Origin: Bradyrhizobium sp. CCGUVB1N3
GTDB lineage: Bacteria > Pseudomonadota > Alphaproteobacteria > Rhizobiales > Xanthobacteraceae
Reading direction: 5' to 3'
Length of the DNA stretch: 64,000 nucleotides
Assembly: GCF_024199925.1 (NCBI RefSeq)
Contig: NZ_JANADR010000001.1
Span: 3,100,001-3,164,000, forward strand
This document shows positions 7,932-43,443 of the stretch, in pieces. The translations under genes and the position numbers were made by a program. Position 1 is the stretch's first letter. Each line of letters starts with the position of its first letter. The notes beneath the pieces are model-generated. The model saw only the letters and a program-made list of their open reading frames with translations, was not told the origin of the DNA and searched no databases.

Positions 7932-7940
7932 GGACCACTC

Positions 7941-8474: not shown

Positions 8475-8480
8475 GGCCGC

Positions 8481-9125: not shown

Positions 9126-9128
9126 GGC

Positions 9129-12387: not shown

Positions 12388-13571
12388 CCCTTCCGTTCGG
12401 CACCGACGCCTGCGATCTCCCGGACAATTGGGGCGAGGTGACGTCGCAACCCTCGTACGTGCTTGAGAGCCGGAATTCCGAGATTGACCGCTTGGGTCAT
12501 CCCCTTGCCGAGATCGGGAATCACCATGTCGGGTTCTGCGCCCAAGGCCTTGACAATCGTATCCCTGGGAAGGCCGCCGGGACGATCGGCGCGATTGAGC
12601 AAAGTAAACACGCGATCCTTGCCGGCGATGTTGGTGACGGCCGCGCGAAGTGCATGGGCGTTGCGCAGTCCGGTCACTTCCGCTTCCAGCAGCACCAGCA
12701 CGTGGCGAGAAAGAGTGATCACCGGATGGATGGATGGCGGAAACGGGACTGGAACATCGACCACGACGTAATTGAACCGTTGGCGGAGCAGACCCAGCAC
12801 GTGTCTCACTCCCGCCTCAGTAATGTTCAGCTGCGCATCCAGGTCCTCGTCGGCGGAAATGAGGCAAACTCGCTCGTTGACATCAATAGCCGCGCGTTCG
12901 AGGAACAACGTGTCCGCCCGCATCGGGTTCTCCAAGGCGATGCGCAGCCCAGGTCCAGGCTGAACACCCAACATTACGGCTGTTTCGCCGCCTTGCAGAT
13001 GAAGGTCGAGCAGCGCGACCTTGGCCTTGGTGGTCTCGGCCAGCTGCAGCGCGAGATTGATGGCGATACTCGTTGCGCCGGCACCGCCCTGCGCACCACA
13101 GATCGAGATCACATGCCCGCCACGATCGGTGGGACCGGGCGCCACGTCGCCAAGCAACTTCGGGCGCAGCTGGTCTAGCACCATATCGCGCGTAAGCGGC
13201 CTCGGCAGATACTCGGTCAAGCCGATTTCCATAAGCTCGCGGTAGAAGGTGATCTCCTTGCTCTCACCGATCAGAGCCACCCGGACATCGGGTGGGCAGA
13301 CGCCGGCCAACCTTTCCAGTTCGGTAAATGGATCATCGATTCCACTGATGTCCGTCACCAACGCGAATAACTCGGTGTCGGTCTCGAGCATCTTTATGGC
13401 ATTACGGATCGTGCCACGCCTGATCGACAAGTTGCTGCCTTCGAGGCCTTTGCGCAGAGCCGCTGCACTAAGCTCGTCATTCACGAAACAGACGATTCGA
13501 TTGCGCGTTGCAACCGACGGAGATTCTTCGGACGAACTGACGACTGCCATATTTACGTTTACGCTCACCAC
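12363..13571 (-). CDS. cpaE: Pilus assembly localisation protein CpaE/TadZ
   Basis: A 402-residue protein with an N-terminal receiver-like domain (residues 25-130) and a C-terminal MinD/ParA-type ATPase domain. The P-loop reads GAQGGAGATSIAINL, lacking the usual first Lys of the deviant Walker A and the terminal Lys, as in other atypical CpaE/TadZ proteins. VVVDVPVPF marks the Walker B region. CpaE places the pilus machine at the cell pole. The first codon is GTG, with GGGAGG just upstream; a second GTG at 13568 or ATG at 13550 could also serve. The 8-bp gap to cpaB indicates one operon. Confidence 0.88.
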   Translation of the reverse strand: MVSVNVNMAVVSSSEESPSVATRNRIVCFVNDELSAAALRKGLEGSNLSIRRGTIRNAIKMLETDTELFALVTDISGIDDPFTELERLAGVCPPDVRVALIGESKEITFYRELMEIGLTEYLPRPLTRDMVLDQLRPKLLGDVAPGPTDRGGHVISICGAQGGAGATSIAINLALQLAETTKAKVALLDLHLQGGETAVMLGVQPGPGLRIALENPMRADTLFLERAAIDVNERVCLISADEDLDAQLNITEAGVRHVLGLLRQRFNYVVVDVPVPFPPSIHPVITLSRHVLVLLEAEVTGLRNAHALRAAVTNIAGKDRVFTLLNRADRPGGLPRDTIVKALGAEPDMVIPDLGKGMTQAVNLGIPALKHVRGLRRHLAPIVREIAGVGAERKGWLRRLLG

Positions 13572-13579
13572 TGCCTCCC

Positions 13580-14494
13580 TTACCGACGTGACGACACGGC
13601 CGACGCGAGCGGCGCTGACGGGGCAATCGCCGGCAGCACGTCGCCGCTCAACAGCGTGCGCGTGTTCCCTGTATCGTCTCGCCTGACTGAGTATTTCGTA
13701 CCGCTGTTGCGCGCATAAACCACCACCGTCGCGGCCGTGTCTCCTGTATCCTGTCGATCGACCGCTGACCGTACGGCCAAGGTGAGCTTTCCGAGCACTG
13801 CTGCGACCGTGACTTTCTTGACCTGCTCTGGCGCAAGCTGCAACGATACGGTACGCGCTACCTTCCCGGCCGTGGCGTTGCTGGCTGAGCCACCTTGCAC
13901 GATCTCCTGGTCAATCGCGACAATTCGAACGTTGTGAACAACGGTTTCGCTCAGCGTGCCATGCTGTTGATCGGGATTTCTCTTGTCGTCGTTCGCTGCT
14001 GTCGATTCCTGGGTCATCACGACATCCACATAGTCACCCGGCCAGATCAGGCCCGAGACACCAGACGCGGCGTCAACGTTGATGCTGATGGCACGGCTAT
14101 CGGGTGCCAGGACGGTGGCGAGAAAACCCCGTTCCCGCGGGCGCAATATGTCCTTTGATGTGACGGGACTGCCGGTGTCGAGAAAGTTGCGAACCAGAGC
14201 TCCGCGAAGTCCGATCTTGGCGTCGGCCGTATCAAGGATTGCCCCTGCAGGAGCACCATCCGACGCTGGCACCGAGCGTACTGTGAAATCCTCATCGCGG
14301 GCCAGCGTCCCTCTCGGTAGCGGACGTGCCGCGACCAAGTACGCTACAGCGGGAGGCGGCTCCGGCGCCTTCTCCGCGACCTGTACGACCGCGACCTGTT
14401 CTTTCGGCAGAACCATGTTGTAGGCAATAAGCCCGAGCGCAGCGGTCGCGAGCAAAAACACCATGATGATCGAGAGACGCAAAGTGGATGACAT
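13580..14494 (-). CDS. cpaB: Flp pilus assembly protein CpaB/RcpC
   Basis: About 304 residues. An N-terminal membrane anchor (LRLSIIMVFLLATAALGLIA) is followed by an SAF domain near residues 50-110 (ARPLPRGTLARDEDFTVRSV) and the RcpC domain (ISINVDAASGVSGLIWPGDYVDVV). CpaB proteins modulate the secretin and bind in the periplasm. The ATG at 14494 has AGGA eight bases upstream and lies one base from the cpaA stop, making it better than the longer frame starting at 14545. Confidence 0.9.
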   Translation of the reverse strand: MSSTLRLSIIMVFLLATAALGLIAYNMVLPKEQVAVVQVAEKAPEPPPAVAYLVAARPLPRGTLARDEDFTVRSVPASDGAPAGAILDTADAKIGLRGALVRNFLDTGSPVTSKDILRPRERGFLATVLAPDSRAISINVDAASGVSGLIWPGDYVDVVMTQESTAANDDKRNPDQQHGTLSETVVHNVRIVAIDQEIVQGGSASNATAGKVARTVSLQLAPEQVKKVTVAAVLGKLTLAVRSAVDRQDTGDTAATVVVYARNSGTKYSVRRDDTGNTRTLLSGDVLPAIAPSAPLASAVSSRR

Positions 14495-14495
14495 G

Positions 14496-15002
14496 TCAAA
14501 GTCCTTTGCTGAAAATGGCCCAGATACCGCCGCACGCGATGGCAACCCCGTAAGGCAGCGGTGCCTGTCGCAAATGGCGCCAACGCTCTATCGAGTAGAC
14601 GCGGCGTACGAGCGACGATCCGGCGGGCGCCAGCCTGGGATATGGCAGCATGCGCATCATCAGATGCACCAGGGCAAGAACGCCGCCGGCAAGCGCGGTT
14701 ATGGTCAACAACTGAATCACACCCGTCAGCGGGAGACCAACCGCTAATGCGACCAGCAGCTTGACGTCACCGCCGCCAATCCATCCCCGCTGGTATATGA
14801 CCAGCAGCAGCAGCAACAGGATTGTTGCGGCGATTAGCGATTCGGCAACTTGCATCGGGCTGGTAAATTGACTGGCGATTCCGAGCAGCGCCAGCGCCAC
14901 ACAAATTTCATTTCGGATCAATCGTGTCGCGATATCGATCGTTGCGACATACAGCAACAACAGGATTTCCAGAAACGAGGTTATGGGAACAATCCAATTC
15001 AT
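14496..15002 (-). CDS. cpaA: Flp prepilin peptidase CpaA/TadV
   Basis: A 168-residue polytopic aspartic protease of the A24A family. The catalytic aspartates are D23 (ATIDIATRLIRNE) and D79 in the invariant GGGDVK motif at residues 76-81. It cleaves the short leader of Flp pilins and TadE/F pseudopilins. The family lacks the N-methyltransferase domain of PilD, which matters for the methyltransferase-like gene nearby. It is separated from the pilin genes by about 117 bp containing a strong hairpin, so it is probably expressed below pilin level. Confidence 0.92.
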   Translation of the reverse strand: MNWIVPITSFLEILLLLYVATIDIATRLIRNEICVALALLGIASQFTSPMQVAESLIAATILLLLLLVIYQRGWIGGGDVKLLVALAVGLPLTGVIQLLTITALAGGVLALVHLMMRMLPYPRLAPAGSSLVRRVYSIERWRHLRQAPLPYGVAIACGGIWAIFSKGL

Positions 15003-16569: not shown

Positions 16570-17457
16570 TCACGCCGCAAGCTTCACCCCGTGTGCGAAA
16601 TCCCAATACAGCTTTCGTGCACGCGCATAAAAGCGCCCGGGCATGAGTTGCCGGTCGTCGATCCGGATCACGGGCGCGACCTTGGCGAAATTGCCGGTCG
16701 AAAAGATCTCGTCCGCAATGACGAAATCCGAATAGCGTAACGTCGCCTCTATCACCGTGATGCCGTCACCGCGCAAAAGGTCGATCACGCGCTGCCGCGT
16801 GATTCCGTTCAGGAACGTGCCATTCGGCGCCGGCGTATAGACGACGCCGGCTTTCGCCATGAACACGTTGGAATTGCCGAACTCGGCGACGTTGCCGAGC
16901 ATATCCAGCATCAGGCAATTCTGGAAGCCACGCGAGGCGGCCTCCCTGAGCGCACGGGAGCTGTTCGGGTAAAGGCAGGAGGCCTTGACGTCGGCCGGCG
17001 CGCATTCGGCGGTCGGTCTGCGGAACGGCGACAGCGTAATCGCGCTGCCGACGGGCTCCGGGATCGGCGATTCGTAGATGCAAAGGCACCAGTCCGTCGT
17101 TTCCGGATCGAACAGCACGCCGCCGCCGACGCCGTTCTGCGGCCAGTACATCGGGCGGATGTAGAGTTCGGCGTTGGCCGGGAAGCGGGCGATACCTTCA
17201 CGCGCCAGTTCGAGCCACGTGCCGAGATCGACGATCGGTTTGAGGCCGAAGTTGAGCGCAGATTGATTGACGCGGGCGCAATGACGATCGAGGTCGGGCA
17301 TGACGCCTTCGAAGGCGCGCGCGCCATCGAACACAGTCGAGGCGAGCCAGAGCCCATGGGTGCGTGGCCCCATGATCGGCAAATTGCCCTCGTGCCACTC
17401 GCCTCGGAAGAATGTCCATGTCCTCGAATGGCTGACGGATTTGGTGTTGGGAACCAT
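16570..17457 (-). CDS. Branched-chain aminotransferase-like class IV PLP enzyme
   Basis: A 295-residue fold-type IV aminotransferase. K158 in ADVKASCLYPNSSRAL is the PLP Schiff-base Lys, and E192 lies in AEFGNSNVFM, the PLP N1 contact region. RGEWHEGNLPIMGPRTHGLW is the expected N-terminus. IlvE-type enzymes interconvert branched-chain amino and keto acids, but the relative could be a specialised transaminase. It closes the minus-strand operon with the aa:CP ligase, MetY and MetA, 28 bp after the acyltransferase gene, so it may act in that pathway and not in general metabolism. Confidence 0.85.
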   Translation of the reverse strand: MVPNTKSVSHSRTWTFFRGEWHEGNLPIMGPRTHGLWLASTVFDGARAFEGVMPDLDRHCARVNQSALNFGLKPIVDLGTWLELAREGIARFPANAELYIRPMYWPQNGVGGGVLFDPETTDWCLCIYESPIPEPVGSAITLSPFRRPTAECAPADVKASCLYPNSSRALREAASRGFQNCLMLDMLGNVAEFGNSNVFMAKAGVVYTPAPNGTFLNGITRQRVIDLLRGDGITVIEATLRYSDFVIADEIFSTGNFAKVAPVIRIDDRQLMPGRFYARARKLYWDFAHGVKLAA

Positions 17458-17485
17458 GACGAACCTCCATTCCGGGACGACTGAG

Positions 17486-18340
17486 TTATGGTCCGTAGAT
17501 CACCAGCTCGGAATCCGACAGATCGGCAAGGCGGGGGCAATGCGGACCCTTGAAGTATTTGCGGCGTTCCCTGTAGAGCCCGGCAAGGCCCTTCATGCGG
17601 CCATTGGCGTCGAGAGCGACGGAGATCCGGCCGCGCCAGAGCAGGAAGCGGCCGATGGCGCCGGCGCAGGCGACGTAGTCGGCCACATCGGTGCAATAGA
17701 TCAACTGCATGGCGGGAGGCGCGATCCTGCGGATTCGCATCGACTGCAGGACGAACGGAAAGGCGCGGCCATCGGCAGCGCGGCATACCAGGCTGAGGCA
17801 GCCATACGCTGCGTGACGTGCAAGCAGCGCGACGTCAGCCTCGGACAGGCCGTCGACCGCCTGCGTGTGCTGCCGGACGACTTCAACGCGCATATCCCTG
17901 GCCCGACGCGACAGCGCTGGAAAGGAGAAGAACAAGCCGCCGCAATAGCGGCGGAATCCCTGCGCTTCGATGGCTGGCCACGTCCATTGCGCCGGACTGA
18001 TATTGACGTAGGTGACGTCCTTGTGACGCTGCGCGACCTTGGTCAGCATCGGCGCGTAGCTGCGGAAGGCAGGTTTCACATACCAGCTGGAGAGATTGCA
18101 GCGGATCGAGATACAGCCGTCATCGTTCCGTGCGGTGTGGATCAACAGCAGAGCGCCGACGGGCGTCCGATCATGCTCGAGCATGTAGCCGAAGCGCGGG
18201 AAACTGTCGGGCGTCTCGCGCACGGACAAGCGCCGTAGTCCGTCGATCCAGTAGTCGCGCGAGCGGATCGGAAAGCCTCGTGTCAGAAGATCGGCGATAA
18301 CGTCAAGATCGGCTATTCCTATTTCGCGGCATCGGATCAT
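17486..18340 (-). CDS. GNAT-like acyltransferase
   Basis: A 284-residue protein. The N-terminus IRCREIGIADLDVIADLLTRGFP is a typical GNAT first helix-strand pair, and the segment RFGYMLEHDRTPVGALLLIHT fits the following strands. A second half from about residue 150 may be a diverged second domain. The acceptor is unknown; in this operon an acyl or aminoacyl transfer from a carrier protein would make sense but is not shown. The ATG at 18340 is 12 bp after the MetA stop codon; the longer frame begins with GTG. Confidence 0.65.
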   Translation of the reverse strand: MIRCREIGIADLDVIADLLTRGFPIRSRDYWIDGLRRLSVRETPDSFPRFGYMLEHDRTPVGALLLIHTARNDDGCISIRCNLSSWYVKPAFRSYAPMLTKVAQRHKDVTYVNISPAQWTWPAIEAQGFRRYCGGLFFSFPALSRRARDMRVEVVRQHTQAVDGLSEADVALLARHAAYGCLSLVCRAADGRAFPFVLQSMRIRRIAPPAMQLIYCTDVADYVACAGAIGRFLLWRGRISVALDANGRMKGLAGLYRERRKYFKGPHCPRLADLSDSELVIYGP

Positions 18341-18351
18341 GGTCCGAACTC

Positions 18352-19515
18352 TCACTCACAACTTCCGAGCCGCTTCTTGTTCTTGGTCATCGGGTCTGGC
18401 AGGTGCGCCAGGCGGGCGGATCGAGCGGCAACCAACTTGCGACCATGGCGGCGCGCCGGCATTCCGGATGCGGAGAGAGCCGCTTCCCCTGCCCCCAACG
18501 GTTTGGAGCGTCCAGCTCGCTGCGACACCATGTACAGCAACCAGTTGCGGTAGATGCGCTTGGCCGGCAGATGCCAGACGTTGTTCAGATCCTTCGTCAC
18601 CTGATCGGCCGGAAAGTCGGCGAAAAGCTCTGGGCGTCTGTCGGAAAGGGCTTTCTGTCGGAAAGCGATCAATATCTCTTCCGCCTCCTCGTTCAAATAA
18701 CCCCTCGGTATCGTCGGACAGACTTCGTTCTCTCCCCGGAGGAAGCGACCCATGTCTCTTCTATGTTCGCCCAACAGGCTCAGGGATTCGTATTCCGGGT
18801 GGCCCTGGAAATGGACGAAAAGGCTCTTCTTCTGCTGCTTGACGAAGCAGTCGACCCCCGCCTCCGCCGACCAGGAGAGAATCGAATATCCGCAGTTCGC
18901 GAGATCCTCCTCCTGCACTTCGTTCCACCGGGCGTGCGGTATTCTGAAGGTCGTCGGCACATCTTGCATCAAGGAATGATGCCTCATCTTTCTTTGAGCG
19001 AAGACACCGAAGCATTTGGCAGGCAGCTTGTGGCGCGCAACGCCATCCAAGTGCAGGACAGCCCCATGGACGGCCAGACACGAAAACACCGACGACACGG
19101 TATTCTCCCTGGCCCAGTCGGCGATCTGGACGAAGGTGCTCCAATAGGGCTCTTCCGTCAGGCTGGCGGCTCTGGGTTCGGCGCCGGTCACGATCACCCC
19201 GTCCAGCCTCCTGTTCAAGAGATCGTCGATGCCACGGTAGTATCGACGCACGTAATCGCGCCCCCATTCCGTACGGGGGGTCGCCTCCATCGTGTAGAAA
19301 TGCAGCCTGACGAGAAGTCGTCCGGCCGCCGCGTTGAGCAGGTCGAACAGCTGACGCTCGGTCGACATCAAGGCAGCATCTGACATGTTGTTGATGAGCC
19401 CGATGTCGAGGCACTCCACCCGGTGTTTCGGCGAGGTCTTGTCATAAGCGCTTCCGCGCGGCGCTCTGGATAGAAGATGGTGTTCGTACGAATCTACGTC
19501 AATCAAAACAGTCAT
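18352..19515 (-). CDS. metA: Homoserine O-acyltransferase, MetA family
   Basis: A 387-residue MetA-type (class I glutamine amidotransferase fold) enzyme activating the homoserine hydroxyl by succinyl or acetyl transfer. The nucleophile is C146 in SVFSCLAVHGAVL, and the H239/E241 pair lies in QGHPEYES, completing the family's triad. The sequence is of the longer Bradyrhizobium-type branch with a basic tail after residue 345. It lies 27 bp after MetY, so acylhomoserine made here is probably passed to that enzyme. It may be a pathway-dedicated copy. Confidence 0.82.
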   Translation of the reverse strand: MTVLIDVDSYEHHLLSRAPRGSAYDKTSPKHRVECLDIGLINNMSDAALMSTERQLFDLLNAAAGRLLVRLHFYTMEATPRTEWGRDYVRRYYRGIDDLLNRRLDGVIVTGAEPRAASLTEEPYWSTFVQIADWARENTVSSVFSCLAVHGAVLHLDGVARHKLPAKCFGVFAQRKMRHHSLMQDVPTTFRIPHARWNEVQEEDLANCGYSILSWSAEAGVDCFVKQQKKSLFVHFQGHPEYESLSLLGEHRRDMGRFLRGENEVCPTIPRGYLNEEAEEILIAFRQKALSDRRPELFADFPADQVTKDLNNVWHLPAKRIYRNWLLYMVSQRAGRSKPLGAGEAALSASGMPARRHGRKLVAARSARLAHLPDPMTKNKKRLGSCE

Positions 19516-19542
19516 TCGAATGCCTTCACAGTTGACGAAACA

Positions 19543-20817
19543 TCAATTCGCGGCACGGAGGGCCTGATCGAGATCCGCGATGATGTCGTCGATGTGCTCG
19601 ATTCCGACGCTCAGCCTGATCATCTCGGGCCGCACGCCGGCTTTGTCCTGCTCTTCGGGCGACATTTGCCGATGCGTGGTCGATGCGGGGTGGCAGGCGA
19701 GCGTTTTCGCGTCGCCAATATTGACCAGCCGTTTGCAGAGCTTCAGCGCGTCGTAAAACCGCTTGCCCGCCTCGAAGCCTCCAGCCACGCCAAAGGTCAG
19801 CAGCGAACACGCCCGGCCGCCCAGATATTTCTGTGTCAGCGCGTAATAGGGGCTGTCGTGAAAGCCCGCATAATTCACCCACCCGACACCGTGGGCATTG
19901 CGCAAGAACTGCGCGACCTTCTCGCCATTATCGACGTGCCGCTCGATCCGCAGCGCGACGGTTTCAATGCCCTGGAGCAGCAGGAAAGCGTTCATCGGCG
20001 CCAGGACGGCGCCGGTGGTCCTCTGCGAGACGGCGCGGCAACGCGCAATGTAGGCAGCGGCCCCGTAGCGCTCGGTGAAGACCAACCCGTGGTACGATGA
20101 CTCCGGCTCGTTCATCATCGGGAAGCGCCGGCGATGCTCCGTCCATGGGAACCTGCCCCCGTCGATGATAATTCCACCGAGCGTGGTGCCATGCCCGCCC
20201 ATGAATTTCGTCAGCGACTCCACGACGATGTCAGCGCCATGTTCGATCGGCCGGAGCAGGATCGGTGTCGGCACCGTGTTGTCGACGATCAGCGGAACGC
20301 CGTGCCGGTGCGCGACGTCGGCCATCGCTTCGATATCGCAGACGTTTCCGGCCGGGTTTCCGACGCTCTCGCAGAACACCGCCCGGGTATCGTCGTCGAT
20401 CAGTCCTTCTACGCTCGCCGGCCGGTCGTCTTCCGAAAACCGCACCGTAATGCCCTGCCTCGGCAGGATGTGCGCGAACAGCGTATGCGTGGTTCCGTAG
20501 AGCTGAGGGACCGAGACGATGTTGGTGCCCATCTCCGCGATATTGATCACCGCATAGTTCACCGCGGCCTGGCCACAGGCCACGCTGAGTGCCCCGATGC
20601 CTCCTTCCAAGTCGGCAACGCGACTCTCAAGCACCGCATTGGTCGGATTGCCGATCCGGGTGTAGCGGAAGCCGTCCACTTCGAGGTTAAACAGCGCGGC
20701 TCCATGGTCGGCGCTGTCGAATGCGTACGAGGCGGTCTGATAGATCGGCACGGCGACGGCCTTGGTGACCGGATCGTCCTTGAAGCCGCCGTGGACGGCG
20801 ATGGTCTCTCTTCTCAT
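19543..20817 (-). CDS. metY: O-acyl-homoserine sulfhydrylase-like PLP enzyme, MetY family
   Basis: A 424-residue Cys/Met-metabolism PLP enzyme. K204 in VVESLTKFMGGHGTTLGG binds PLP. Other family landmarks are YTRIGNPTN (residues 52-60) and the C-terminal RLSVGIEHIDDIIADL. It replaces the acyl group of O-acylhomoserine with a nucleophile, usually sulfide. The ATG at 20817 with AAGGA upstream is the start; the frame stays open much further but that part is antisense to the ligase gene. Its place between the aa:CP ligase and MetA suggests it makes a homoserine-derived building block; compare rhizobitoxine synthesis, where a related enzyme is used. Confidence 0.85.
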   Translation of the reverse strand: MRRETIAVHGGFKDDPVTKAVAVPIYQTASYAFDSADHGAALFNLEVDGFRYTRIGNPTNAVLESRVADLEGGIGALSVACGQAAVNYAVINIAEMGTNIVSVPQLYGTTHTLFAHILPRQGITVRFSEDDRPASVEGLIDDDTRAVFCESVGNPAGNVCDIEAMADVAHRHGVPLIVDNTVPTPILLRPIEHGADIVVESLTKFMGGHGTTLGGIIIDGGRFPWTEHRRRFPMMNEPESSYHGLVFTERYGAAAYIARCRAVSQRTTGAVLAPMNAFLLLQGIETVALRIERHVDNGEKVAQFLRNAHGVGWVNYAGFHDSPYYALTQKYLGGRACSLLTFGVAGGFEAGKRFYDALKLCKRLVNIGDAKTLACHPASTTHRQMSPEEQDKAGVRPEMIRLSVGIEHIDDIIADLDQALRAAN

Positions 20818-20900
20818 GGAGGAGGGTCCTTCGACCCTTCGATCCCGGGCGATCTCGGGATGTCCCTGGCGCATCGCACGTCCTCCAATTCCAACGCCAC

Positions 20901-21854
20901 CTACCGGTCGTTCCGCGGGAAACCGAGCAGGTCCCGCACCGCGGCCGGCCAGCGGGTCGTGTTTCCGCCGTGGGTGTGGAACATGGCGACCGCGAGACGG
21001 TCCATTCCGAACGCCACGCAGGCGGTATGGGCCGGCTCGCCGGCCGCATCCACGATGCCCCAGGCGGCACCGAAATGTTCGCGGTGATAGTTGAAGCTCA
21101 TGCAGGCAGTCGGCTGCTCCTCGGAGCGCAGAGGCACCAGCAGCTCGAACTTCAGCGACATTTGCTTTTGGCTCAGGGCCATCATCTGGCCGACCCGCCC
21201 GAAGAACGGATCGCTGGCGTAGTCGATCCTGAAGGTCAACCCGAGATCGCGAGCGATCCCCTGTGCCCGCTCGATCCAACGCTCCCGGAACGTGAAGGCC
21301 TGATCAGGGCTGCCGATGCAGACGAATTCGCGCATCCTGAAGGACTGAAGCCGGTCGAGATGGTGCGAGGGCTCGCGGCGGAAGCAATCGGCGGCAACGT
21401 CGAAACGCCAACCGCATGCGGGTATGGGACCGCGGCTCGCTGCGATCGGATAGACCGGATAGCAGGCTGCTGGCGACAGCACGAGGTCGGCCGGTGAAAG
21501 CGACTGCGTCCAGTCGCCGCCGGCCTCGAAGCGGCTGACTGCGGCGTGGATCTCGCTATCCGTGCCGTGCAAGCCGCAAACGCAACCCAGGAGGTTCGGA
21601 AAGCTTTTCAGATAGCCCGACCTCTCAAGCTGCGCACGACTCATGACGGGGGGGAAGCGCATCACCTCGGTGTCCGCTTCGCGATGCCGCGAGATCAGCA
21701 CCGCAAGCCGCTCTACGACGTCTTCATAGAGCGCGGTGCGACCATAGACCCCCGGAGAGCCCATCTCGTGGAACAGCAAATCGGCAAGATGGTCCAACGG
21801 ATCGGACGGACGCGAAGCGGATTCCGGCGGTGCTGCAAACATGGCCACGTTCAT
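20901..21854 (-). CDS. Amino acid:[carrier protein] ligase (truncated seryl-tRNA synthetase homologue)
   Basis: A 317-residue class II synthetase-like catalytic core without a tRNA-binding arm. With the ATG at 21854, C131 (AACYP), E176 (RMRE) and C279 (HTACV) fall exactly where I recall the zinc ligands of Bll0957 of B. japonicum, supporting both identity and start. Class II motifs appear as FRMREFV and FGMDRLAVAMF. Bll0957 activates glycine with ATP and loads it on a small carrier protein. Here the carrier gene is two genes away. The longer frame to 21890 begins with TTG overlapping the dehydrogenase stop. Confidence 0.9.
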   Translation of the reverse strand: MNVAMFAAPPESASRPSDPLDHLADLLFHEMGSPGVYGRTALYEDVVERLAVLISRHREADTEVMRFPPVMSRAQLERSGYLKSFPNLLGCVCGLHGTDSEIHAAVSRFEAGGDWTQSLSPADLVLSPAACYPVYPIAASRGPIPACGWRFDVAADCFRREPSHHLDRLQSFRMREFVCIGSPDQAFTFRERWIERAQGIARDLGLTFRIDYASDPFFGRVGQMMALSQKQMSLKFELLVPLRSEEQPTACMSFNYHREHFGAAWGIVDAAGEPAHTACVAFGMDRLAVAMFHTHGGNTTRWPAAVRDLLGFPRNDR

Positions 21855-21886
21855 ATCGAGCCCCATTTCCTTTCGAGGACCAAATA

Positions 21887-23113
21887 TCAATCGCGCAGGG
21901 AATCCGGGACGGCGCTCATCAGCGTAGCGGTACCCATGCTGGCGAGGATACGATCGTTGTTGATCATGATCGGAGCGGAAAGCACGTCGCGCAGGTGGCG
22001 GCCGATACTTACGTCGGTGTCGTTGCGGTAGCCGGACAGGCCGCAGGCGCGCATCGCGTGCATAACGGCCGCGACCGCGAGCTCGGAGGCCTCCACCTTG
22101 AGAAGATTGATCGAGGACTGGAAGTCGACGGACGACAGCGCGCGCTCGTCCCGTTCGCGAGCTTCATAGAACTGGAGATTCGCGGCAATGACGGCGCGCA
22201 ATTTCGTCAGCGTCATTTTGGCGGCAGTGAAATGCGCCGCGCCGGGAGGCATATTGCCGCCCGCCCCGCGGGCGGCCTTGCGGATGAAGAGCTGCGCCCG
22301 GTCCGCCGCCGCAGCCGCGATCCCCGCCCAGACCGAGGACCAGCACAGGTGGGCGACGGGCGTCATCGTCTGCGCATGGATCCTTTCGTATGCCACGGGA
22401 AATATCTGGTCCGCAGCGCCCCTGAAATTCAGCTTGAACCCGGCGCTGCAGGTCCCACGCATGCCAAGGGTCTCCCAGGCGAGAGTGGGTTCCAGCGTAT
22501 AGTCGTCGCGGGTGATGGCCAGCAGAACCTGATCGGATCCGGTGGCAGAGTCGGAGCGGCGGGCGACGGTGATGATACCGTCCGCCTCGGCGCCGTACGA
22601 GATCACTGTCGCGTCGCGCACCAGCGAAATCTCGGCGCCAGCGCGTTCCACTGCGGCCGTGCTGAACCGGATGTTTCCGCCGTTCTGGCCTTCCGTGGTC
22701 GACGATGCCAGCAGCAGCTGTTCGGCAGCCACGCGGCGCATGAGATTTTCGTGCCAGCCGCTGCCAGCGCCATGGCGGACCAGGCACGCGATCTTGGTCT
22801 GATGCATCGCGAAGATCATCCCGACCGAGGCGCAGGCGCGGCCGAGCGCGTAACACATATCGGTCACGTCGGAGATGGATGCGCCGTCTCCGCCGAATTC
22901 GGCCGGAATCTGAGCGCCCAGAAGCCTCTCCTTGCGGGCCGCGTCGATCGCCTCCCGCGGGAAGCGCGCCTCGCGGTCGACCGCCCCGGCCTCCGTCGCA
23001 GCGACCTTCGCGACATTTGCCGTCCGCTGCTGGAACGAGGAACCATCGGGAGAGAACGCTACTCGGCTAATGTCCGTGGCAATGTTGCGGAACTGGACTT
23101 CCTGCACACTCAT
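21887..23113 (-). CDS. Acyl-CoA dehydrogenase-like flavoprotein
   Basis: A 408-residue protein of the acyl-CoA dehydrogenase fold: N-terminal helices (GAQIPAEFGGDGASISDV), a middle beta-domain (ASSTTEGQNGGNIRFSTAAV) and C-terminal helices ending ILASMGTATLMSAVPDSL. The family oxidises acyl thioesters using FAD; members in biosynthetic clusters oxidise aminoacyl groups on carrier proteins. Next to an aa:CP ligase and a carrier protein, an aminoacyl-carrier substrate is a reasonable guess. A Glu base cannot be assigned by eye. It is the first gene of the minus operon, divergent from the carrier-protein gene. Confidence 0.8.
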   Translation of the reverse strand: MSVQEVQFRNIATDISRVAFSPDGSSFQQRTANVAKVAATEAGAVDREARFPREAIDAARKERLLGAQIPAEFGGDGASISDVTDMCYALGRACASVGMIFAMHQTKIACLVRHGAGSGWHENLMRRVAAEQLLLASSTTEGQNGGNIRFSTAAVERAGAEISLVRDATVISYGAEADGIITVARRSDSATGSDQVLLAITRDDYTLEPTLAWETLGMRGTCSAGFKLNFRGAADQIFPVAYERIHAQTMTPVAHLCWSSVWAGIAAAAADRAQLFIRKAARGAGGNMPPGAAHFTAAKMTLTKLRAVIAANLQFYEARERDERALSSVDFQSSINLLKVEASELAVAAVMHAMRACGLSGYRNDTDVSIGRHLRDVLSAPIMINNDRILASMGTATLMSAVPDSLRD

Positions 23114-23331
23114 GGGCCAAAGCCTCGCATTTCACGGTTGGACGACGCGAACCCAGCTCGAAAATCGACCACTAGCCCACTTCCCCGGCGACGTCGTTGG
23201 CGCAAAAGTGGGTGTCGGGGAGCTTCCACTCCCGAGCGAGGTACCTCCGAAGCACAGCTATTGACGGGAAGAACGGTTGGGTATCGTCCTCCGATTGTGA
23301 TCACGCCCGGTCACGGCGAGGGGCCGTTGAA
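23114..23331. promoter_or_regulatory. Divergent promoter region of the carrier-protein cluster
   Basis: A 218-bp gap separates the first gene of the minus operon from the first gene of the plus operon, so both promoters must lie here. This would keep ligase, dehydrogenase and carrier in balance. I see no clear operator. GAGGGG at about 23318 serves as ribosome binding site for carrier protein 1. Confidence 0.45.
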
Positions 23332-23601
23332 ATGCATGACTTTGCCGTCAACGTTCAGAACCGTGTTCTATCCGTCGTCAGGAGCGTCCTTGAGCAGAAC
23401 GCGATCACCGCCGATGTCCACCCGGAGTCGCGGCTTGTGGATATCGGATTGAGCTCGATGGGCATGGTCGAGCTGATGCTCAAGGTTGAGGCCGAGTTCG
23501 ACCTCATCCTTCCCCAACTCGCGATCACGCCCGAGAATTTTCAATCGGTGAAGACGATGGAGCGGATGATCCTCAACCAGCTCGGACCCGGGTCGGGATG
23601 A
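23332..23601 (+). CDS. Carrier protein 1, probable partner of the aa:CP ligase
   Basis: An 89-residue acyl/peptidyl carrier protein: helix 1 AVNVQNRVLSVVRSVLEQ, a loop, then VDIGLSSMGMVELMLKVEAEF with S42 as the phosphopantetheine Ser. The site reads LSSM where most carriers have LDSL. It corresponds by position to the carrier gene near bll0957. The ATG at 23332 follows GAGGGG. The stop overlaps the next ligase start as ATGA, so the two are coupled. It should receive the amino acid activated by the ligase encoded across the promoter. Confidence 0.88.
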   Translation: MHDFAVNVQNRVLSVVRSVLEQNAITADVHPESRLVDIGLSSMGMVELMLKVEAEFDLILPQLAITPENFQSVKTMERMILNQLGPGSG

Positions 23602-25538
23602 AGCCGGTTGAACAGAGATTCTGTTTCGACGACCAGGCAGGCCGCATAGACAATGATTGCACGGTCGCTCTGGCCGCGACCTTGCCGACCAGCGGGCAGG
23701 TGCGCGCGGATGTCGATCCAGCCCAACTGCACGATCAGGTCGTGACGACCAGAGGCGACGCGCCGCAGCGCGGACGCTCTGCCGCCAAGACCTGGCTGCA
23801 AGCCTTCGAACGAACCGCGCGGGTCGCAGCGGAGCCGCATCGTTTGTTCGCCGACATCGTAGAAGAATGGGCTCAGCGTCAGCCCGGGCGACCTGCCTTG
23901 CTCTCGGACGGCCACTCGTTCACCTATGGAGAACTCGCCGCCCGGATCAACCGGTATGCGCGCTGGGCGCGCAGCCTTGGCCTTCATGCAGGCCGCACCG
24001 CCTGTCTGCTGATGCCGAACCGGCCGGACTACCTCGCCTGCTGGCTCGGCATCAGCAGGGTCGGCGGAACGGTCGCGCTGATCAATACCAGGCTGGTGGG
24101 CCGGTCGCTCGCCCACTGCATCGACGTCGCGCAGGCCGATCACATCATCCTTGCTGCCGATTGCGTGGATGCGTTCGAGACCGCACGTCCGTACCTGCAC
24201 CGCCTGCCGCAAAGCTGGAGCATCGGCACTGGCGACCCAAGCGGCGATCTGGACGCGACACTCGCCGCCTTCGAGCCGGGCCCGCTGTCCGCCGCCGAAC
24301 GTGGCGAGGTCACGATCGATGGACGCGCACTCCTCATCTACACCTCGGGCACCACGGGGCTACCGAAGGCCGCGAACATCAGTCATCGCCGCATTCTCAC
24401 CTGGGGCGGATGGTTTGCCGGCCTGATGGACGCGTCCGCCAACGATCGTCTCTACGACTGCCTACCGCTCCACCATTCCGTGGGCGGCGTCGCGGCTCCC
24501 TGTAGCATGCTCAGCGCGGGCGGTTCGGTCGTGATTGCGGAGAAATTCTCCGCTGGCAGCTTCTGGGACGACATCGTGCGTTTCGACTGCACCGTCTTCC
24601 AATATATTGGCGAGCTCTGCCGGTACTTGCTCAAGGCGCCGGCTTCTGAACGAGAGGCGCGACACGGGCTGCGGCTGGCTGTCGGCAACGGATTACGCGG
24701 CGACATCTGGGAGATGTTCGCCAGCCGGTTCGCGATTCCGCAGATCCTCGAATTCTATGCCGCAACGGAAGGCAATTTTTCGCTGTTCAACGTCGAAGGA
24801 AAACCCGGCGCGATCGGTCGGATTCCGCCGATGCTGGCGCATCGCTTTCCCGCCGCGATCATCAAGGTCGATGCCGACAGCGGCAACCCGCTCCGCAGCG
24901 ACGCCGGGCTCTGCATCGCCTGCGCCCCTGGCGAGACGGGCGAGGCTGTCGGGCGCATCAGCAGCGCCGGTCGCAACGGCGTACCTTTCGAAGGCTACAC
25001 GGACCCCGGCGAGACGGAGAAAAAGATTCTGCGCGACGTCTTTACCGAGGGCGATGTCTGGTTCCGCACCGGCGATCTGATGCTGCGCGACGAACAGGGT
25101 TACTTGCACTTCGTCGACCGCGTCGGCGATACCTTCCGCTGGAAGGGCGAGAACGTCGCGACCAGCGAGGTGAACGACGCAATAAGGGACTGCCCCGGCG
25201 TTCTCGACGCCTCGACCTATGGAGTTGCCGTTTCCGGGGCCGACGGCCGCGCGGGCATGGCGGCTTTGGTGGTGGATCGAGGTTTCGATTTCGGGATGTT
25301 CAGCGAACACCTTTCGCATCGGCTTCCGCCCTACGCAATTCCAGCCTTCGTCAGGCTGTGCGGGGCACTGGAGGCGACCGACACTTTTAAGCAGAAGAAG
25401 CAGCGGCTGATCCGCGAAGGGTTCGATCCTTCGGTCGTGGACGATCCGCTGTTCCTGCGCGATCCAGCGACCGGTCACTATCATTCGATCGACCGGGCCG
25501 CCTACGCGCGCATCGTTGAAGGCGAAATCAGGCTCTAA
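23598..25538 (+). CDS. ANL-superfamily acyl ligase (FATP/very-long-chain acyl-CoA synthetase-like)
   Basis: A 646-residue adenylate-forming enzyme. About 75 unusual N-terminal residues precede the ligase core. The P-loop is IYTSGTTGLPKAAN at 247-260, the substrate motif FYAATEGNFSLFN lies near 393-405, and VWFRTGDLM plus DRVGDTFRWKGENVAT are the ATP and hinge motifs. The pattern resembles bacterial FATP-type long-chain acyl-CoA synthetases. Sitting between two carrier-protein genes, it may load a fatty acyl group on a carrier or CoA, perhaps for N-acylation of the bound amino acid (inference). Confidence 0.85.
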   Translation: MKPVEQRFCFDDQAGRIDNDCTVALAATLPTSGQVRADVDPAQLHDQVVTTRGDAPQRGRSAAKTWLQAFERTARVAAEPHRLFADIVEEWAQRQPGRPALLSDGHSFTYGELAARINRYARWARSLGLHAGRTACLLMPNRPDYLACWLGISRVGGTVALINTRLVGRSLAHCIDVAQADHIILAADCVDAFETARPYLHRLPQSWSIGTGDPSGDLDATLAAFEPGPLSAAERGEVTIDGRALLIYTSGTTGLPKAANISHRRILTWGGWFAGLMDASANDRLYDCLPLHHSVGGVAAPCSMLSAGGSVVIAEKFSAGSFWDDIVRFDCTVFQYIGELCRYLLKAPASEREARHGLRLAVGNGLRGDIWEMFASRFAIPQILEFYAATEGNFSLFNVEGKPGAIGRIPPMLAHRFPAAIIKVDADSGNPLRSDAGLCIACAPGETGEAVGRISSAGRNGVPFEGYTDPGETEKKILRDVFTEGDVWFRTGDLMLRDEQGYLHFVDRVGDTFRWKGENVATSEVNDAIRDCPGVLDASTYGVAVSGADGRAGMAALVVDRGFDFGMFSEHLSHRLPPYAIPAFVRLCGALEATDTFKQKKQRLIREGFDPSVVDDPLFLRDPATGHYHSIDRAAYARIVEGEIRL

Positions 25539-25572
25539 CATCGGCTCGGAAAGCCGAGATGTGAGGTGTACC

Positions 25573-25818
25573 ATGTCGGTCAGGTCAAAGATTTTCTCCG
25601 CGATGAAGCAGATCGCCGAGGAACAGAAGGTCACGCTTCCGCCGCTTGAGGACGATCTGTCACTGAACGAAACCGGGTTCGATTCGCTGGCATTCGCAAT
25701 CCTGGTTGCACGGCTGGAGGACGAACTCGGTATTGATCCCTTTACGGTCGCCGAGGACGCAGCCTTCCCGTCAACCCTCGGTGAGTTCGTCAGAGCTTAC
25801 GAGAATGTCCCCGCCTGA
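25573..25818 (+). CDS. Carrier protein 2
   Basis: An 81-residue acyl carrier protein with the standard motif NETGFDSLAFAIL, S38 being the phosphopantetheine site. It has an acidic recognition helix (LEDELGIDPF) and lies 34 bp after the ligase. Its site is canonical, unlike carrier protein 1, so the two carriers probably serve different loading enzymes. The following ligase starts 14 bp before its stop codon, indicating tight coupling and likely a dedicated pair. Confidence 0.88.
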   Translation: MSVRSKIFSAMKQIAEEQKVTLPPLEDDLSLNETGFDSLAFAILVARLEDELGIDPFTVAEDAAFPSTLGEFVRAYENVPA

Positions 25819-27190
25819 CATCTTCGCGCTGCGCCAATATCTCGGCCCGGAGCTGACGGACCGCAAGATTTCCGATGCCCGGCACAGTGTATCGCTGACC
25901 GACATTATCGAGCACAGCTGCCTGACTGGCAGGCCCTGCGAGCTGTCCGGCCGCTCGGTGCTGCTTGCGACGTCGGGACAGCTGCTGTCCGCGCTTGCAT
26001 TGATCGAGCTCGACGGCGTCGCCCGCCGCATACTCCTATGCCCGCCCGACCTCGATTGGGATCGCCTGCAGGTCCTGCTCGAGCAGGCCGAGATCGACAC
26101 CATCGTCACCGACCGGCCGTTACAGCGATGCAGTGCCGGCAAGTACGCCGTTATCGGCATCGACCTGCCCGAACGGAGGACCTTGGGGTGGAAGGTCGAC
26201 CGCGCGACCGAGTGGCTCATGCTAACCTCGGGGACGTCAGGGCTGCCGAAGATCGTCCGGCATACGCTCGATGGGCTCGCCGGCGCGATCATCGCCGACG
26301 GGCCTTCACGCTACCGGAACGCAACCTGGGCGACATTTTACGACATCCGTCGCTACGGCGGCCTGCAAATCTTCCTGCGAACCTTGATCGGCGGCGGATC
26401 GATGGTGCTTTCGGAGCCCGGGGAAGCCGTCGCGGCCCATGTGGCGCGGTTGCGCACGGGCGGGGTCACCCACATCTCCGGGACGCCGTCGCACTGGCGC
26501 AAGCTCCTGATGAGCGGCGCGGCTGCAGACTTTTCGCCGCACTATGTCCGCCTGTCGGGCGAGATCGCAGATCAGGCAGTGCTCGACGGCCTGGCTCGGG
26601 CATTTCCGCATGCGTCGATCGGCCACGCCTATGCCTCGACCGAGGCTGGCGTCGGTTTCGGTGTGGACGACGGGCGCGAAGGTTTTCCCGCCGGCCTGAT
26701 CGGCCGGAATCGCGACGGTGTCGAGATGAAGGTGGTCGACGGCTCGCTGCGGATCCGTTCCAAGAGGACCGCGCGCGCCTATGTCGGCGCCGATGCGCCG
26801 CCGCTCGCCGACGCAGACGGCTTCGTCGATACCGGCGATATTGTCGAGCTGCGCGGCGAACGATACCACTTCGTCGGCCGGCGAGGCGGCATCATCAACA
26901 TCGGCGGGTTGAAGGTGCATCCGGAGGAGGTGGAAGCCGTGATCAACCGGCACGCCTGCGTCCTGATGTCGCGCGCGCGATCGCGCAGGAGCCCGATCAC
27001 CGGTGCCATTGTGGTCGCCGATGTCATCCTCGCCGACGGCATCGATCCGGAGCGCCACGAGACGATCCGCAAGGAGATTCTCGGCCGGTGCAAAGACTGC
27101 CTGGCGGTATGGAAGGTGCCTGCGGTGATCCGCTTCGTCGAACGGCTCGACGTCACGGCAGCGGGGAAACTGGCGCGCACCGATGCGTAA
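25805..27190 (+). CDS. ANL-superfamily ligase partner of carrier protein 2
   Basis: A 461-residue adenylate-forming enzyme, short for the superfamily. The P-loop TSGTSGLPKIVRH is at 141-153, the aromatic/Glu motif YASTEAGVGFG near 278, and FVDTGDIV plus FVGRRGGIINIGGLKVHPEEVE are the ATP and hinge/core motifs. The architecture is like small fatty-acyl-AMP or aryl ligases. It overlaps the carrier-protein gene at its 5' end and the SDR gene at its 3' end by 8 bp. The substrate is unknown. Confidence 0.83.
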   Translation: MSPPDIFALRQYLGPELTDRKISDARHSVSLTDIIEHSCLTGRPCELSGRSVLLATSGQLLSALALIELDGVARRILLCPPDLDWDRLQVLLEQAEIDTIVTDRPLQRCSAGKYAVIGIDLPERRTLGWKVDRATEWLMLTSGTSGLPKIVRHTLDGLAGAIIADGPSRYRNATWATFYDIRRYGGLQIFLRTLIGGGSMVLSEPGEAVAAHVARLRTGGVTHISGTPSHWRKLLMSGAAADFSPHYVRLSGEIADQAVLDGLARAFPHASIGHAYASTEAGVGFGVDDGREGFPAGLIGRNRDGVEMKVVDGSLRIRSKRTARAYVGADAPPLADADGFVDTGDIVELRGERYHFVGRRGGIINIGGLKVHPEEVEAVINRHACVLMSRARSRRSPITGAIVVADVILADGIDPERHETIRKEILGRCKDCLAVWKVPAVIRFVERLDVTAAGKLARTDA

Positions 27191-27908
27191 CGTCCTCGTC
27201 ACCGGCGGCAGCCGCGGCATCGGTCTTGCCATTGCGCGCAGGCTCGCCGCATCCGGCGACTACAATGTGGTCGCGGTAGCGCGCCGCGAGAGCGGGGAGC
27301 TTGCGGCTGCCATCCGCGAAGCGGAGCGGCGCCTGCATTTCCGCGCCTGCGACCTTGCGGTGACCGATGCGATCCCGGCCTTCGCAAAATCGGTGCGCGA
27401 CGAATTCGGCACGATCTACGGCCTCGTCAACAATGCCGGGATCGGCACCGATGGGCTGCTGGCCACCATGCACAATTCCGAGATCGAGGCCTTGATTCGC
27501 CTGAACGTATTGTCGCCGATCATCCTGACCAAATATTTGGCGCGCCATATGATGGCAGACGGCGCGGGGCGGATCGTCAACGTCTCCTCTATCGTCGCCT
27601 CGACCGGCTACAGCGGCCTGGCCGTGTATGCCGCGTCCAAGGCCGCGATTGCCGGCTTCACCCGTTCGCTGGCCCGAGAAGTCGGCAGGGTCGGCATCAC
27701 CGTGAACGCGATCGCGCCCGGCTTCATCGACACGGAATTGACCGGGTCCTTGGACGACGAAGGCCGTCGACGCATTACCGGCCGCAGCGCATTACGCCGC
27801 CTGCCCGAAGCCGACGACGTCGCTTCCATGGTCGAATATCTTCTCGGCGAAGGTGGCCGAAACATCACCGGCACCGTCGTGACGGTCGACGCCGGCAACA
27901 CCGCCTGA
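27183..27908 (+). CDS. FabG-like short-chain dehydrogenase/reductase
   Basis: A 241-residue classical SDR. TGGSRGIG at 7-14 binds NAD(P), NNAG is at 83-86, and the catalytic residues are S136, Y149 and K153 (VYAASKAA). The ending NITGTVVTVDAGNTA is typical of FabG. FabG enzymes reduce 3-ketoacyl groups on carrier proteins, which fits an operon with two carriers. It is the last gene of the plus operon and overlaps the previous gene by 8 bp. Confidence 0.88.
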   Translation: MRNVLVTGGSRGIGLAIARRLAASGDYNVVAVARRESGELAAAIREAERRLHFRACDLAVTDAIPAFAKSVRDEFGTIYGLVNNAGIGTDGLLATMHNSEIEALIRLNVLSPIILTKYLARHMMADGAGRIVNVSSIVASTGYSGLAVYAASKAAIAGFTRSLAREVGRVGITVNAIAPGFIDTELTGSLDDEGRRRITGRSALRRLPEADDVASMVEYLLGEGGRNITGTVVTVDAGNTA

Positions 27909-28848: not shown

Positions 28849-29313
28849 ATGCCGCTCGCAATGATTGAAACGGGGCACTACAAGGTAGATCTCGGTCCGG
28901 CGCCGATCAAGCAATCCTGGATCATTGAAGGCACTCCGGAAGCTCGTTCGCGCCTGCTGTCGGCGAGCGCATGCAAAACTTCCAAAACGGTGGTCTGGTC
29001 GTGCACCGAAGGAAAATTCAACTGGTACTACGATCGCGACGAGACCATCTTGATCCTGGAAGGATCAATCGTGCTTGAGAGCGAAGGCATGCCGCCGAAG
29101 CGCTATGGCGTCGGTGACGTGATCACTTTTCGCGAGGGAGCGCACGCCAAATGGCACGTCGAGGGTTACGTGAGGAAGCTAGCGTTCCTCCACGTGAACA
29201 GTCCATTCCCGATTGCCGTCGCCATCCGCGTCATCAGAAAGCTCAGGTCGTTGATCGCGCGGAACGCGCCCGGCGGGCAGCAAGACCGCCCGTCCGCTAT
29301 GCCCACGGACTAA
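28849..29313 (+). CDS. Cupin-domain protein
   Basis: About 154 residues with a single small cupin (DUF861-like): KTVVWSCTEGKFNWYYDRDETILILEG, then the second motif DVITFREGAHAKWHVEGYVRKLAFL. Aromatic WY and Asp residues replace some usual His ligands, so metal binding is uncertain. Similar small cupins are frequent in Bradyrhizobium. The start is uncertain: the frame is open from 28558, with ATGs at 28735, 28849 and 28861; the core domain starts after 28861. It stands alone beside IS debris. Confidence 0.65.
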   Translation: MPLAMIETGHYKVDLGPAPIKQSWIIEGTPEARSRLLSASACKTSKTVVWSCTEGKFNWYYDRDETILILEGSIVLESEGMPPKRYGVGDVITFREGAHAKWHVEGYVRKLAFLHVNSPFPIAVAIRVIRKLRSLIARNAPGGQQDRPSAMPTD

Positions 29314-31090: not shown

Positions 31091-31821
31091 TGGGCGCTCC
31101 TCAGCGTGTCGCCCCCAAAAGATAAACGCCCCCAAAAAGATAAACTCTGTAGCCCCGGCACTATTTCACCAATATCGATAGAATCATCCGAAATTTCCAA
31201 AAACACAAGCGATACTTAAGGGTTAACGGACGCGGCGGTCTGCTCGCTTCCCGACTCTCATCCAGCAATTTGGCCCGTAAGAACCCGGTAGTCCGGCCGC
31301 GGCACACAGGCCTTGGTTGCGAACGCGCCCGGACAACGGCGAAATCTTGAACGGCCAACACCTTCGATATTTCCGCAACGTTGATGTGTACCGCGTCGTT
31401 AACTCACTTGCAGAATGTGTTCGCGCAGACGTGGCATCGACCAACAAAAACTCCGAGAAGTTCTTCAACGTTGAATCAACATCTCGACCTTATTCGCGCA
31501 GAGACTGTGCCAGAAGCGGTTTTTAACCACCGCACTCGTACGGATATATCCGCGCCCGCTCCTATAACGAACGATATATAGGGCGATCTCAAATTCGCAT
31601 CTAACATTCATAAACGCTTAAGAAAATGTGGTGCGATCGCCGACAACGTTCGGCAAACGACAAAAGAGGAGGGCCACGATCGAAGTACCTCAATTTTTTT
31701 GAAGACTGAAAGCTCAGGGAGAACGACCAATTTAACAACAACGATTCGTTCGTCCGTCGAAGAACCAAATTGAGTTCAACCGTCCGTCGCTGTTGTGTCA
31801 TTGCGTAGGCTGGAGGGTAAA
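31091..31821. promoter_or_regulatory. Long AT-rich divergent region between two LuxR-type regulators
   Basis: These 731 bp hold no convincing gene and are clearly richer in A/T than the surroundings (for example the T-run near 31692). Both regulators must be transcribed from here. The gap is much longer than a simple divergent promoter needs, so several binding sites or a small RNA are possible. GGAGGG at about 31810 is the ribosome binding site of the plus-strand regulator. Confidence 0.45.
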
Positions 31822-34461: not shown

Positions 34462-34580
34462 ATCATACCTGACAATCGGCATGCCGCCGGCAGTTGGCTT
34501 GTCCTGGACGCGAAAGCGCTTCGGATCGCGCTTACCGCCAGGCTGCGAGGAGTACATCCTGAAACTCATGGGATGAAAGC

Positions 34581-43249: not shown

Positions 43250-43323
43250 GCGTACCCTTTCGTTCTGTTTACACAGTCTTTGACACAAGGGATTCCACTG
43301 CCGCGCATCACGAAGGCGCGCGA

Positions 43324-43443
43324 CATACCACGTGCTCGCAACCTCAGGCCGCGAGCAGATTCCAACGCATCGCAGTCTCGGACCGCGAGCGGATTCCAAC
43401 GCATCGCAGTCTCGGACGACGAGCGGATTCCAAAGCAGTGGGA
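43324..43443 (+). repeat. 34-bp tandem repeats upstream of the secreted-protein gene
   Basis: The unit GATTCCAACGCATCGCAGTC plus TCGGACCGCGAGCG starts at 43358, 43392 and 43426 (partial). A more diverged copy precedes it at 43324. The period is exactly 34 bp. It lies 75-195 bp upstream of the start codon, so it may carry operators. The copies are contiguous, without spacers, so this is not a CRISPR. Confidence 0.75.

Follow-up and report, generated by a model that had tools for sequence, protein, structure and literature searches.

Which pathway makes use of an amino acid:[carrier protein] (aa:CP) ligase of the Bll0957 type? The question is raised by the window analysed here, a stretch of 64,000 nucleotides from the 10.44 Mb genome of Bradyrhizobium sp. 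CCGUVB1N3 (contig NZ_JANADR010000001.1, positions 3,100,001 to 3,164,000; coordinates below count from its first letter), in which such a ligase is encoded among eleven genes in two divergent operons. Mocibob et al. are said to have reported in 2010 that the Bll0957-type ligase loads glycine on a carrier protein, the work reportedly ending at carrier aminoacylation. Crystal structures of this ligase have existed for years, PDB entries 3mey and 4h2s among others, and we know of no pathway for it. Our results indicate that the eleven genes, together with a neighbouring cupin gene, almost certainly constitute one pathway, because genes of the set that are not linked are jointly present or absent among genomes, and because they are re-clustered in five other families.

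A co-inherited gene set in Bradyrhizobium

The genes are listed in order of transcription, first the minus-strand operon, then the plus-strand operon and the cupin to its right.

21887..23113 (-), flavoenzyme of the acyl-CoA dehydrogenase (ACAD) fold; A254 and I384 at the usual catalytic Glu positions, His255 invariant
20901..21854 (-), aa:CP ligase, 317 aa; PRK07080, 469.8 bits (cut-off 357)
19543..20817 (-), MetY, O-acylhomoserine sulfhydrylase family, gamma-replacement pyridoxal phosphate (PLP) enzyme; TIGR01326, 599.6 bits (cut-off 495.1)
18352..19515 (-), MetA, homoserine O-acyltransferase family, 474.3 bits (cut-off 358)
17486..18340 (-), acyltransferase AcT, tandem GNAT-fold transferase without a Pfam family
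16570..17457 (-), AT4, class IV aminotransferase of the branched-chain type; NCBIfam PRK13356, 468.8 bits (cut-off 262)
23332..23601 (+), carrier protein CP1, pantetheine site Ser42 in LSSM; below the PRK07081 cut-off
23598..25538 (+), ANL1, FATP-like long-chain acyl-CoA synthetase family; PRK08279, 749.1 bits (cut-off 625)
25573..25818 (+), carrier protein CP2, Ser38
25805..27190 (+), ANL2, adenylate-forming ligase overlapping CP2; nearest to MenE models, below their cut-off
27183..27908 (+), short-chain dehydrogenase/reductase (SDR), FabG-like reductase below the FabG equivalog cut-off
28849..29313 (+), EutQ-like cupin (PF05899), right of the SDR gene; the open frame begins at 28558, and the start is inferred from homologues

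The original prediction, made from the letters of the window, had described eleven genes in two divergent operons at 16570-27908, and all of them are in place with the families it named; a gap of 218 bp (23114-23331) separates the divergent starts, and both carriers are on the plus strand. Its list missed one member, the cupin just outside that range.

Evidence for a single gene set comes from 265 genomes of the same genus. The ligase was found in 176 of them, CP2 in 179, MetA in 179 (E up to 1e-20) and the cupin in 182, or 176 once six weak hits are excluded. About two thirds of the sampled genus thus has the ligase, the rest of the set lying in most cases at other sites of the genome. All four occurred together in 171 genomes and none of them in 81, the weak cupin hits being dropped. 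Presence or absence of ligase and CP2 agreed in 256 genomes (173 with both, 83 with neither); ligase and MetA, at the same E value, were likewise both present in 173 and both absent in 83, and ligase and cupin were both present in 173 and both absent in 86, or in 80 when the six weak cupin hits were kept. Once the 38 genomes with ligase and CP2 within 12 kb on one contig, as judged by eye from their positions, are set aside, the two were not seen linked in the remaining 227 (in drafts this may mean that they lie on different contigs), of which 135 had both, 83 neither and nine one alone. Three genomes carried the ligase without CP2, two of them (G036 and G090; G numbers denote genomes and L numbers loci) with weaker ligase matches, about 1e-93, which are perhaps of a sister type. 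P-values for such associations are inflated by shared ancestry, but joint presence and absence at separate loci is otherwise hard to explain.

Synteny was compared in the best 80 of 566 ligase loci, all from Bradyrhizobium except one labelled Frankia. The two-operon arrangement was present in 24 of them (L004-L027), and tblastn matched all eleven genes in 16 of these, although among the 16 one match was partial or distant in L008, L011, L013 and L015, and eight of the 24 were without AcT, AT4, ANL2 or SDR, or had fragments only. All of the remaining 56 loci had CP1, ACAD, ligase and AcT; AT4, MetA and MetY lay nearby in some, and ANL1, CP2, ANL2 and SDR were seen in none of them within flanks of up to 10 kb. 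Directly after CP1, 50 of these 56 loci (e.g., L003:12456-14453) have MtnP and MtnA genes, which links methylthioadenosine salvage to the ligase; the two genes were found in none of the 24 two-operon loci. The window's own genome has a second ligase locus, L003, with MetA, MetY and AT4, and about 2 Mb away L135, with ANL1, CP2, ANL2 and SDR; counting the window cluster, it therefore carries the set twice, with 43-81% identity between the copies. Conservation of the set across Bradyrhizobium, for which the original prediction had suggested a synteny survey, is thus borne out, whereas uniform synteny is not, as the genes are scattered in most sampled genomes that possess them. This scattering may explain why the set was missed as one cluster.

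Two types of ligase outside the genus

The ligase was detected by an order-level profile search in 93 of 397 genomes, eleven of these belonging to the genus, and a class-wide sample gave a ligase match in 19 of 385 genomes, 10 over the cut-off; 20 and 12 contexts, respectively, were taken, giving 32 outside loci. Twelve of them are of the window kind, with clusters in five other families. L144, L203, L204, L207, L208, L211 and L215 have most members in shuffled order within about 10-15 kb, L201 and L202 have ligase, ACAD, CP1, AcT, CP2, ANL2, SDR and cupin, and L145, L210 and L212 are partial loci with ANL2 and AcT on other contigs and, for L212, MetA too. Judged from such comparisons, the cupin is part of the gene set: it has relatives in 8 of the 12 (L201-L204, L207, L208, L211, L215), the weakest, in L203 and L204, at 34-35% identity, and in 8 of the 24 two-operon loci (L007, L010, L012, L014-L017, L021), and it is multi-copy, with four matches in the window's own genome. 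An alpha/beta-hydrolase (PF07859) gene was present in several other Bradyrhizobium loci and in L144, L203, L204, L207 and L211, and was not found near the window cluster.

A different arrangement, CP-ACAD-ligase-DUF1839, was found in 14 of the 32 loci (L139, L140, L142, L143, L205, L206, L209, L213, L214, L216-L220), with a GH2-like gene in 13, all but L139. L141 and L146, related to this type, have ligase and CP and no ACAD match, and at the distant ligases L147-L150, searched without the DUF1839 and GH2 queries, the sole matches to partners were weak ones to the SDR, in two of the four. In a ligase tree of 68 rows the two kinds were separated with full support, the window's 22-row group lying on one branch, in a tree that includes long branches, L144 among them. 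The partners divide in the same manner among 26 of the 32 genomes, a comparison that excludes G395, G580 and the four distant ones: 12/12 genomes with the window-type ligase had MetA, ANL2 and AcT, while the 14 sister-type genomes gave two weak hits for MetA and, for ANL2 and AcT, one strong hit each, both in G892, and one weak hit each. Far from never being co-conserved, an outcome that the original prediction had named as fatal to itself, the two operons are clearly co-inherited inside and outside the genus.

The sister type had in part been described. Iyer et al. (2010; PMC2922099) link a SerRS-like (seryl-tRNA synthetase-like) ligase to an acyl carrier protein, a redox enzyme, the conserved protein Atu2574 and a glycosidase, and predict that this operon forms an amide with a sugar of the cell surface and probably carries out a mono-oxygenation, a description that the DUF1839/GH2 loci fit; DUF1839 itself has been modelled as papain-like and guessed to process glycans in another study (PMC10318531). 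This Agrobacterium-type operon, CP-ACAD-ligase-DUF1839-GH2, has a homologous CP, ACAD-like enzyme and ligase in common with the window, but its ligase belongs to the sister clade, DUF1839 takes the place of AcT, and MetA, ANL2 and AcT are absent from most genomes tested. In the window itself, DUF1839 and GH2 do not lie downstream of the ligase, and MetY and MetA follow instead. We regard the sister clade with DUF1839 (and GH2) as a second pathway type. That the pathway is undescribed, as originally supposed, consequently holds for the larger gene set, of which no description was found in the open-access literature searched (subscription papers being mostly outside its reach), and does not hold for the part of the sister-clade context printed in 2010.

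Proposed chemistry on two carriers and its alternatives

With Bll0957 the window ligase aligns at 588 bits, 250 of 315 aligned residues being identical (79%). C131, E176 and C279, numbered from the ATG at 21854, are identical in 178/178 ligase rows, 134 of them distinct (rows, here and below, are sequences from the fetched loci, duplicates included); these correspond to the zinc ligands of Bll0957, and the alignment originally proposed proved sound. The 317-aa protein has no tRNA-binding domain, the SerRS alignment spanning residues 301-506 of a 527-residue chain. CP and ACAD genes adjoin the ligase in close relatives as well; the Bll0957 work is not known to assign a role to the remaining genes of the present pathway. 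By analogy with the specificity reported for Bll0957, the ligase would load an amino acid, most likely glycine, on CP1. A table in one review gives Gly, Ala and Ser as substrates of such ligases (PMC9437257). Bll0957 and Bll0958 each showed a fold change of 3.0 in a Bradyrhizobium diazoefficiens phaR mutant at low oxygen (PMC10888616), which fits joint expression.

The other enzymes also retain their catalytic residues, and by sequence comparison the cluster genes are under purifying selection: pairwise ratios of nonsynonymous to synonymous substitution (dN/dS) were 0.03-0.37 per gene, highest for MetA (0.37) and CP1 (0.32), with ANL1 compared to four relatives and the other genes to six. Kept residues include Ser42 of CP1 (107/107 rows) and the serine of CP2 (71/71), Lys455 of ANL2 (65/65), Lys153 and Tyr149 of the SDR (40/40 and 39/40), Cys146, His239 and Glu241 of MetA (59/59), Lys204 of MetY (64/64) and the PLP-binding Lys158 of AT4 (44/44); the C-terminal Lys of ANL1 is replaced by Arg in 7/41 rows. 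The motif FYDIRRYGG is invariant in ANL2 (12/12 rows); reading an amino-acid specificity from it was abandoned, the Asp of this region also occurring in some acyl-CoA synthetases. AT4, present in 6/12 outside loci of the window kind and missing in some two-operon loci, was rejected as a strict member and, since only part of the loci carry it, is likely accessory to the pathway.

Taken together, we consider it rather probable that the genes, in roughly the steps that follow, assemble a small molecule from units held on two dedicated carriers, the detailed mechanism being put forward tentatively. After glycine loading, the flavoenzyme would oxidise glycyl-S-CP1 at nitrogen or at the C-N bond, giving an N-hydroxylated product, an oxime or an imine. 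ANL2 would load an acid on CP2, where the SDR may reduce or oxidise it, and ANL1 would activate a fatty acid. A homoserine-derived amino acid is suggested by MetA and MetY, which could build one that is gamma-substituted, with AT4 interconverting amino and keto forms. AcT would then form an amide or ester between the CP2-bound acyl unit and the CP1-bound or homoserine-derived amine, and the cupin and, in other genomes, the alpha/beta-hydrolase might finish or release the product.

The alternative that survives best, to which we give a modest chance, is that an amino acid is attached to a surface polysaccharide or lipid, in the manner of Dlt or Alm, and no free small molecule is made. In those systems an amino acid is loaded on a carrier for transfer, as it would be here. 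The 2010 prediction made such a case for the operon of ligase and Atu2574 on the basis of neighbouring glycosidase and liposaccharide genes (PMC2922099), and the guess that DUF1839 acts on glycans (PMC10318531) points the same way. Also in favour are the long-chain acyl ligase family of ANL1, the presence of Wzz and AsnB genes 5-9 kb rightward of the cluster, and a polysaccharide-deacetylase gene (nearest NCBIfam model HfsH, 173.8 bits, cut-off 400) that stands beside MetA or elsewhere in the locus in many Bradyrhizobium loci and in G404. Outside the genus, however, the deacetylase was found in one of 28 loci compared (L144). Moreover, the Pfam scan of the cluster open reading frames (ORFs) gave no match to an MBOAT (DltB) or AlmG-type acyltransferase, a glycosyltransferase or the condensation domain of nonribosomal peptide synthetases, and surface decoration leaves no obvious place for MetA, MetY and AT4.

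Assembly of a small molecule raises the question of what the flavoenzyme does. Its ACAD fold is clear (mean predicted local distance difference test, pLDDT, of the model 83.2); since this fold is common to dehydrogenases and N-/S-oxygenases, it cannot by itself tell the activity, and the best 25 Foldseek rows contain DszC, KijD3 and nitrososynthases intermixed with dehydrogenases. The usual catalytic glutamates, located by sequence alignment and known motifs rather than structure superposition, are both missing: position 384, equivalent to Glu376 of medium-chain acyl-CoA dehydrogenase, is I or V in 164/164 rows (126 distinct), and position 254, equivalent to Glu254 of isovaleryl-CoA dehydrogenase, is A, S, C, T or G in 164/164, with His255 present in all. 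Because both glutamates are missing and glycine has no beta-carbon, the enzyme probably, on this sequence evidence, oxidises at nitrogen or C-N and is unlikely to catalyse alpha,beta-oxidation of an aminoacyl thioester; were the cargo glycine, desaturation would be impossible for want of a beta-carbon. The top PDB relative by sequence, 7p98, is a solved dehydrogenase in which the corresponding positions likewise lack Glu, so that loss of Glu is by itself no proof against dehydrogenation. A true dehydrogenase yielding a dehydroamino acid or a vinylglycine-type product, with rhizobitoxine-like logic, is nonetheless improbable. The fold is close to dehydrogenases, among them ColB1, which its entry title says dehydrogenates an assembly-line-tethered cysteine, and rhizobitoxine biosynthesis also uses MetY-family gamma-replacement. 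In the rtx cluster, RtxA is an aminotransferase-MetY fusion and RtxC a desaturase; set against that cluster, compared here by description, MetY of the window stands alone as a gene, and the scanned ORFs include no desaturase. N-oxidation by such a fold has been proposed elsewhere: a study of L-alanosine biosynthesis (PMC7347517) describes AlnG, an ACAD homologue, putatively flavin-dependent, for which N-hydroxylation of an amino acid-derived unit has been proposed. AlnG shares this idea with the window and differs in substrate and cluster, the likeness again being one of description.

Coupling would fall to AcT, whose AlphaFold2 model is a two-domain GNAT protein (mean pLDDT 87.2) and whose fold matches are GNAT proteins, some of them tandem. 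In 112/112 rows the sequence at the site of the CoA-binding RxxGxG/A loop is Rxx(A/S)x(M/L/F). AcT divergently adjoins CP2 in 8/8 outside loci holding it and lies within the ligase operon in Bradyrhizobium, therefore bridging both halves; so placed, and with the customary CoA loop missing, the tandem GNAT probably joins the cargo of the two carriers. The annotations 'acyl-CoA dehydrogenase' and 'acyl-CoA acyltransferase' may thus mislead here. Valanimycin biosynthesis uses seryl-tRNA as donor and a flavin N-hydroxylase. It has in common with the window SerRS-like activation, transfer by a tandem GNAT and a flavoenzyme whose target may be nitrogen, but relies on a tRNA where a carrier protein would serve in the window, and no Fem-type protein was among the 50 AcT fold rows listed, an absence that carries no weight. 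VlmA is the double-GNAT transferase in question (PMC12945691). A very improbable alternative makes AcT a homoserine-lactone-type synthase that converts S-adenosylmethionine to methylthioadenosine, which MetA, MetY, AT4, MtnP and MtnA would recycle. LuxI enzymes do have a GNAT-like fold, and MtnP/MtnA accompany most ligase loci that lack the second operon. The model of AcT, however, is that of a tandem GNAT, the same 50 rows contain no LuxI-type entry (a fold result that does not decide the matter), and no MtnP/MtnA were found in the 24 two-operon loci. That ordinary genes of methionine, fatty-acid and branched-chain amino acid metabolism lie together by chance may be dismissed, for although most of the families are common when taken singly, their unlinked copies are co-inherited and the genes are re-clustered in several families.

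The most specific form of the two-carrier proposal is speculative and rather a long shot: a tRNA-free transfer of the Fem/VlmA type, in which glycine put on a carrier by a SerRS-derived ligase would be N-oxygenated, while tethered, by the ACAD-fold enzyme and the tandem GNAT would couple glycine, the CP2 acyl unit and the homoserine-derived amino acid, giving N-oxygenated lipo-amino-acid metabolites. If true, these would be a widespread new metabolite class in Bradyrhizobium and related families. Co-inheritance in any case names likely partners for Bll0957, namely CP2, ANL2, SDR, AcT, MetA, MetY, ANL1, AT4, the cupin and the alpha/beta-hydrolase, and through these unlinked genes the role of aminoacyl-carrier proteins becomes directly testable.

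The intergenic palindrome and flanking genes

One further feature lies between the divergent starts.

23238..23247, palindrome GAGGTACCTC, candidate operator

A GTAC-centred near-palindrome was present at the equivalent place in 24/24 related two-operon loci, with a GGTACC core in 21 (no chance level was computed), and the core occurred in none of 18 CP1-ACAD gaps of the other ligase loci examined, L003 included. Over the 10.4 Mb genome the extended motif has a single occurrence; five places match the bare 10-mer and 11 a reversed control, so the presence of the 10-mer alone means little. A shared operator marking a regulon was rejected, GRGGTACCYC being missing from L003, L135 and L138, and no claim is made for a similar copy at 28747 upstream of the cupin, a like sequence standing upstream of the cupin relative in one of 16 loci (L017).

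Genes for Flp/Tad pilus assembly lie to the left of the cluster (6555-14545) and also adjoin it in L005, L006 and L024. To the right follow genes for a LuxR-type regulator, the Wzz chain-length determinant and an asparagine-synthase-like protein (31795-36605) and then type I secretion genes, encoding an HlyD-type protein and a C39-peptidase ABC transporter (36868-40996), whose relatives, with at least 80% identity, lie near many of the two-operon loci whose surroundings were examined (L014-L017, L019, L021-L024, L027, L136, L137, L152, L154). Adjoining them, a 764-residue open frame without a Pfam family (41105-43399), with relatives in L136 and L137, is possibly a substrate of this secretion system, and an IS-type integrase (rve) gene is found at 46937-47764.

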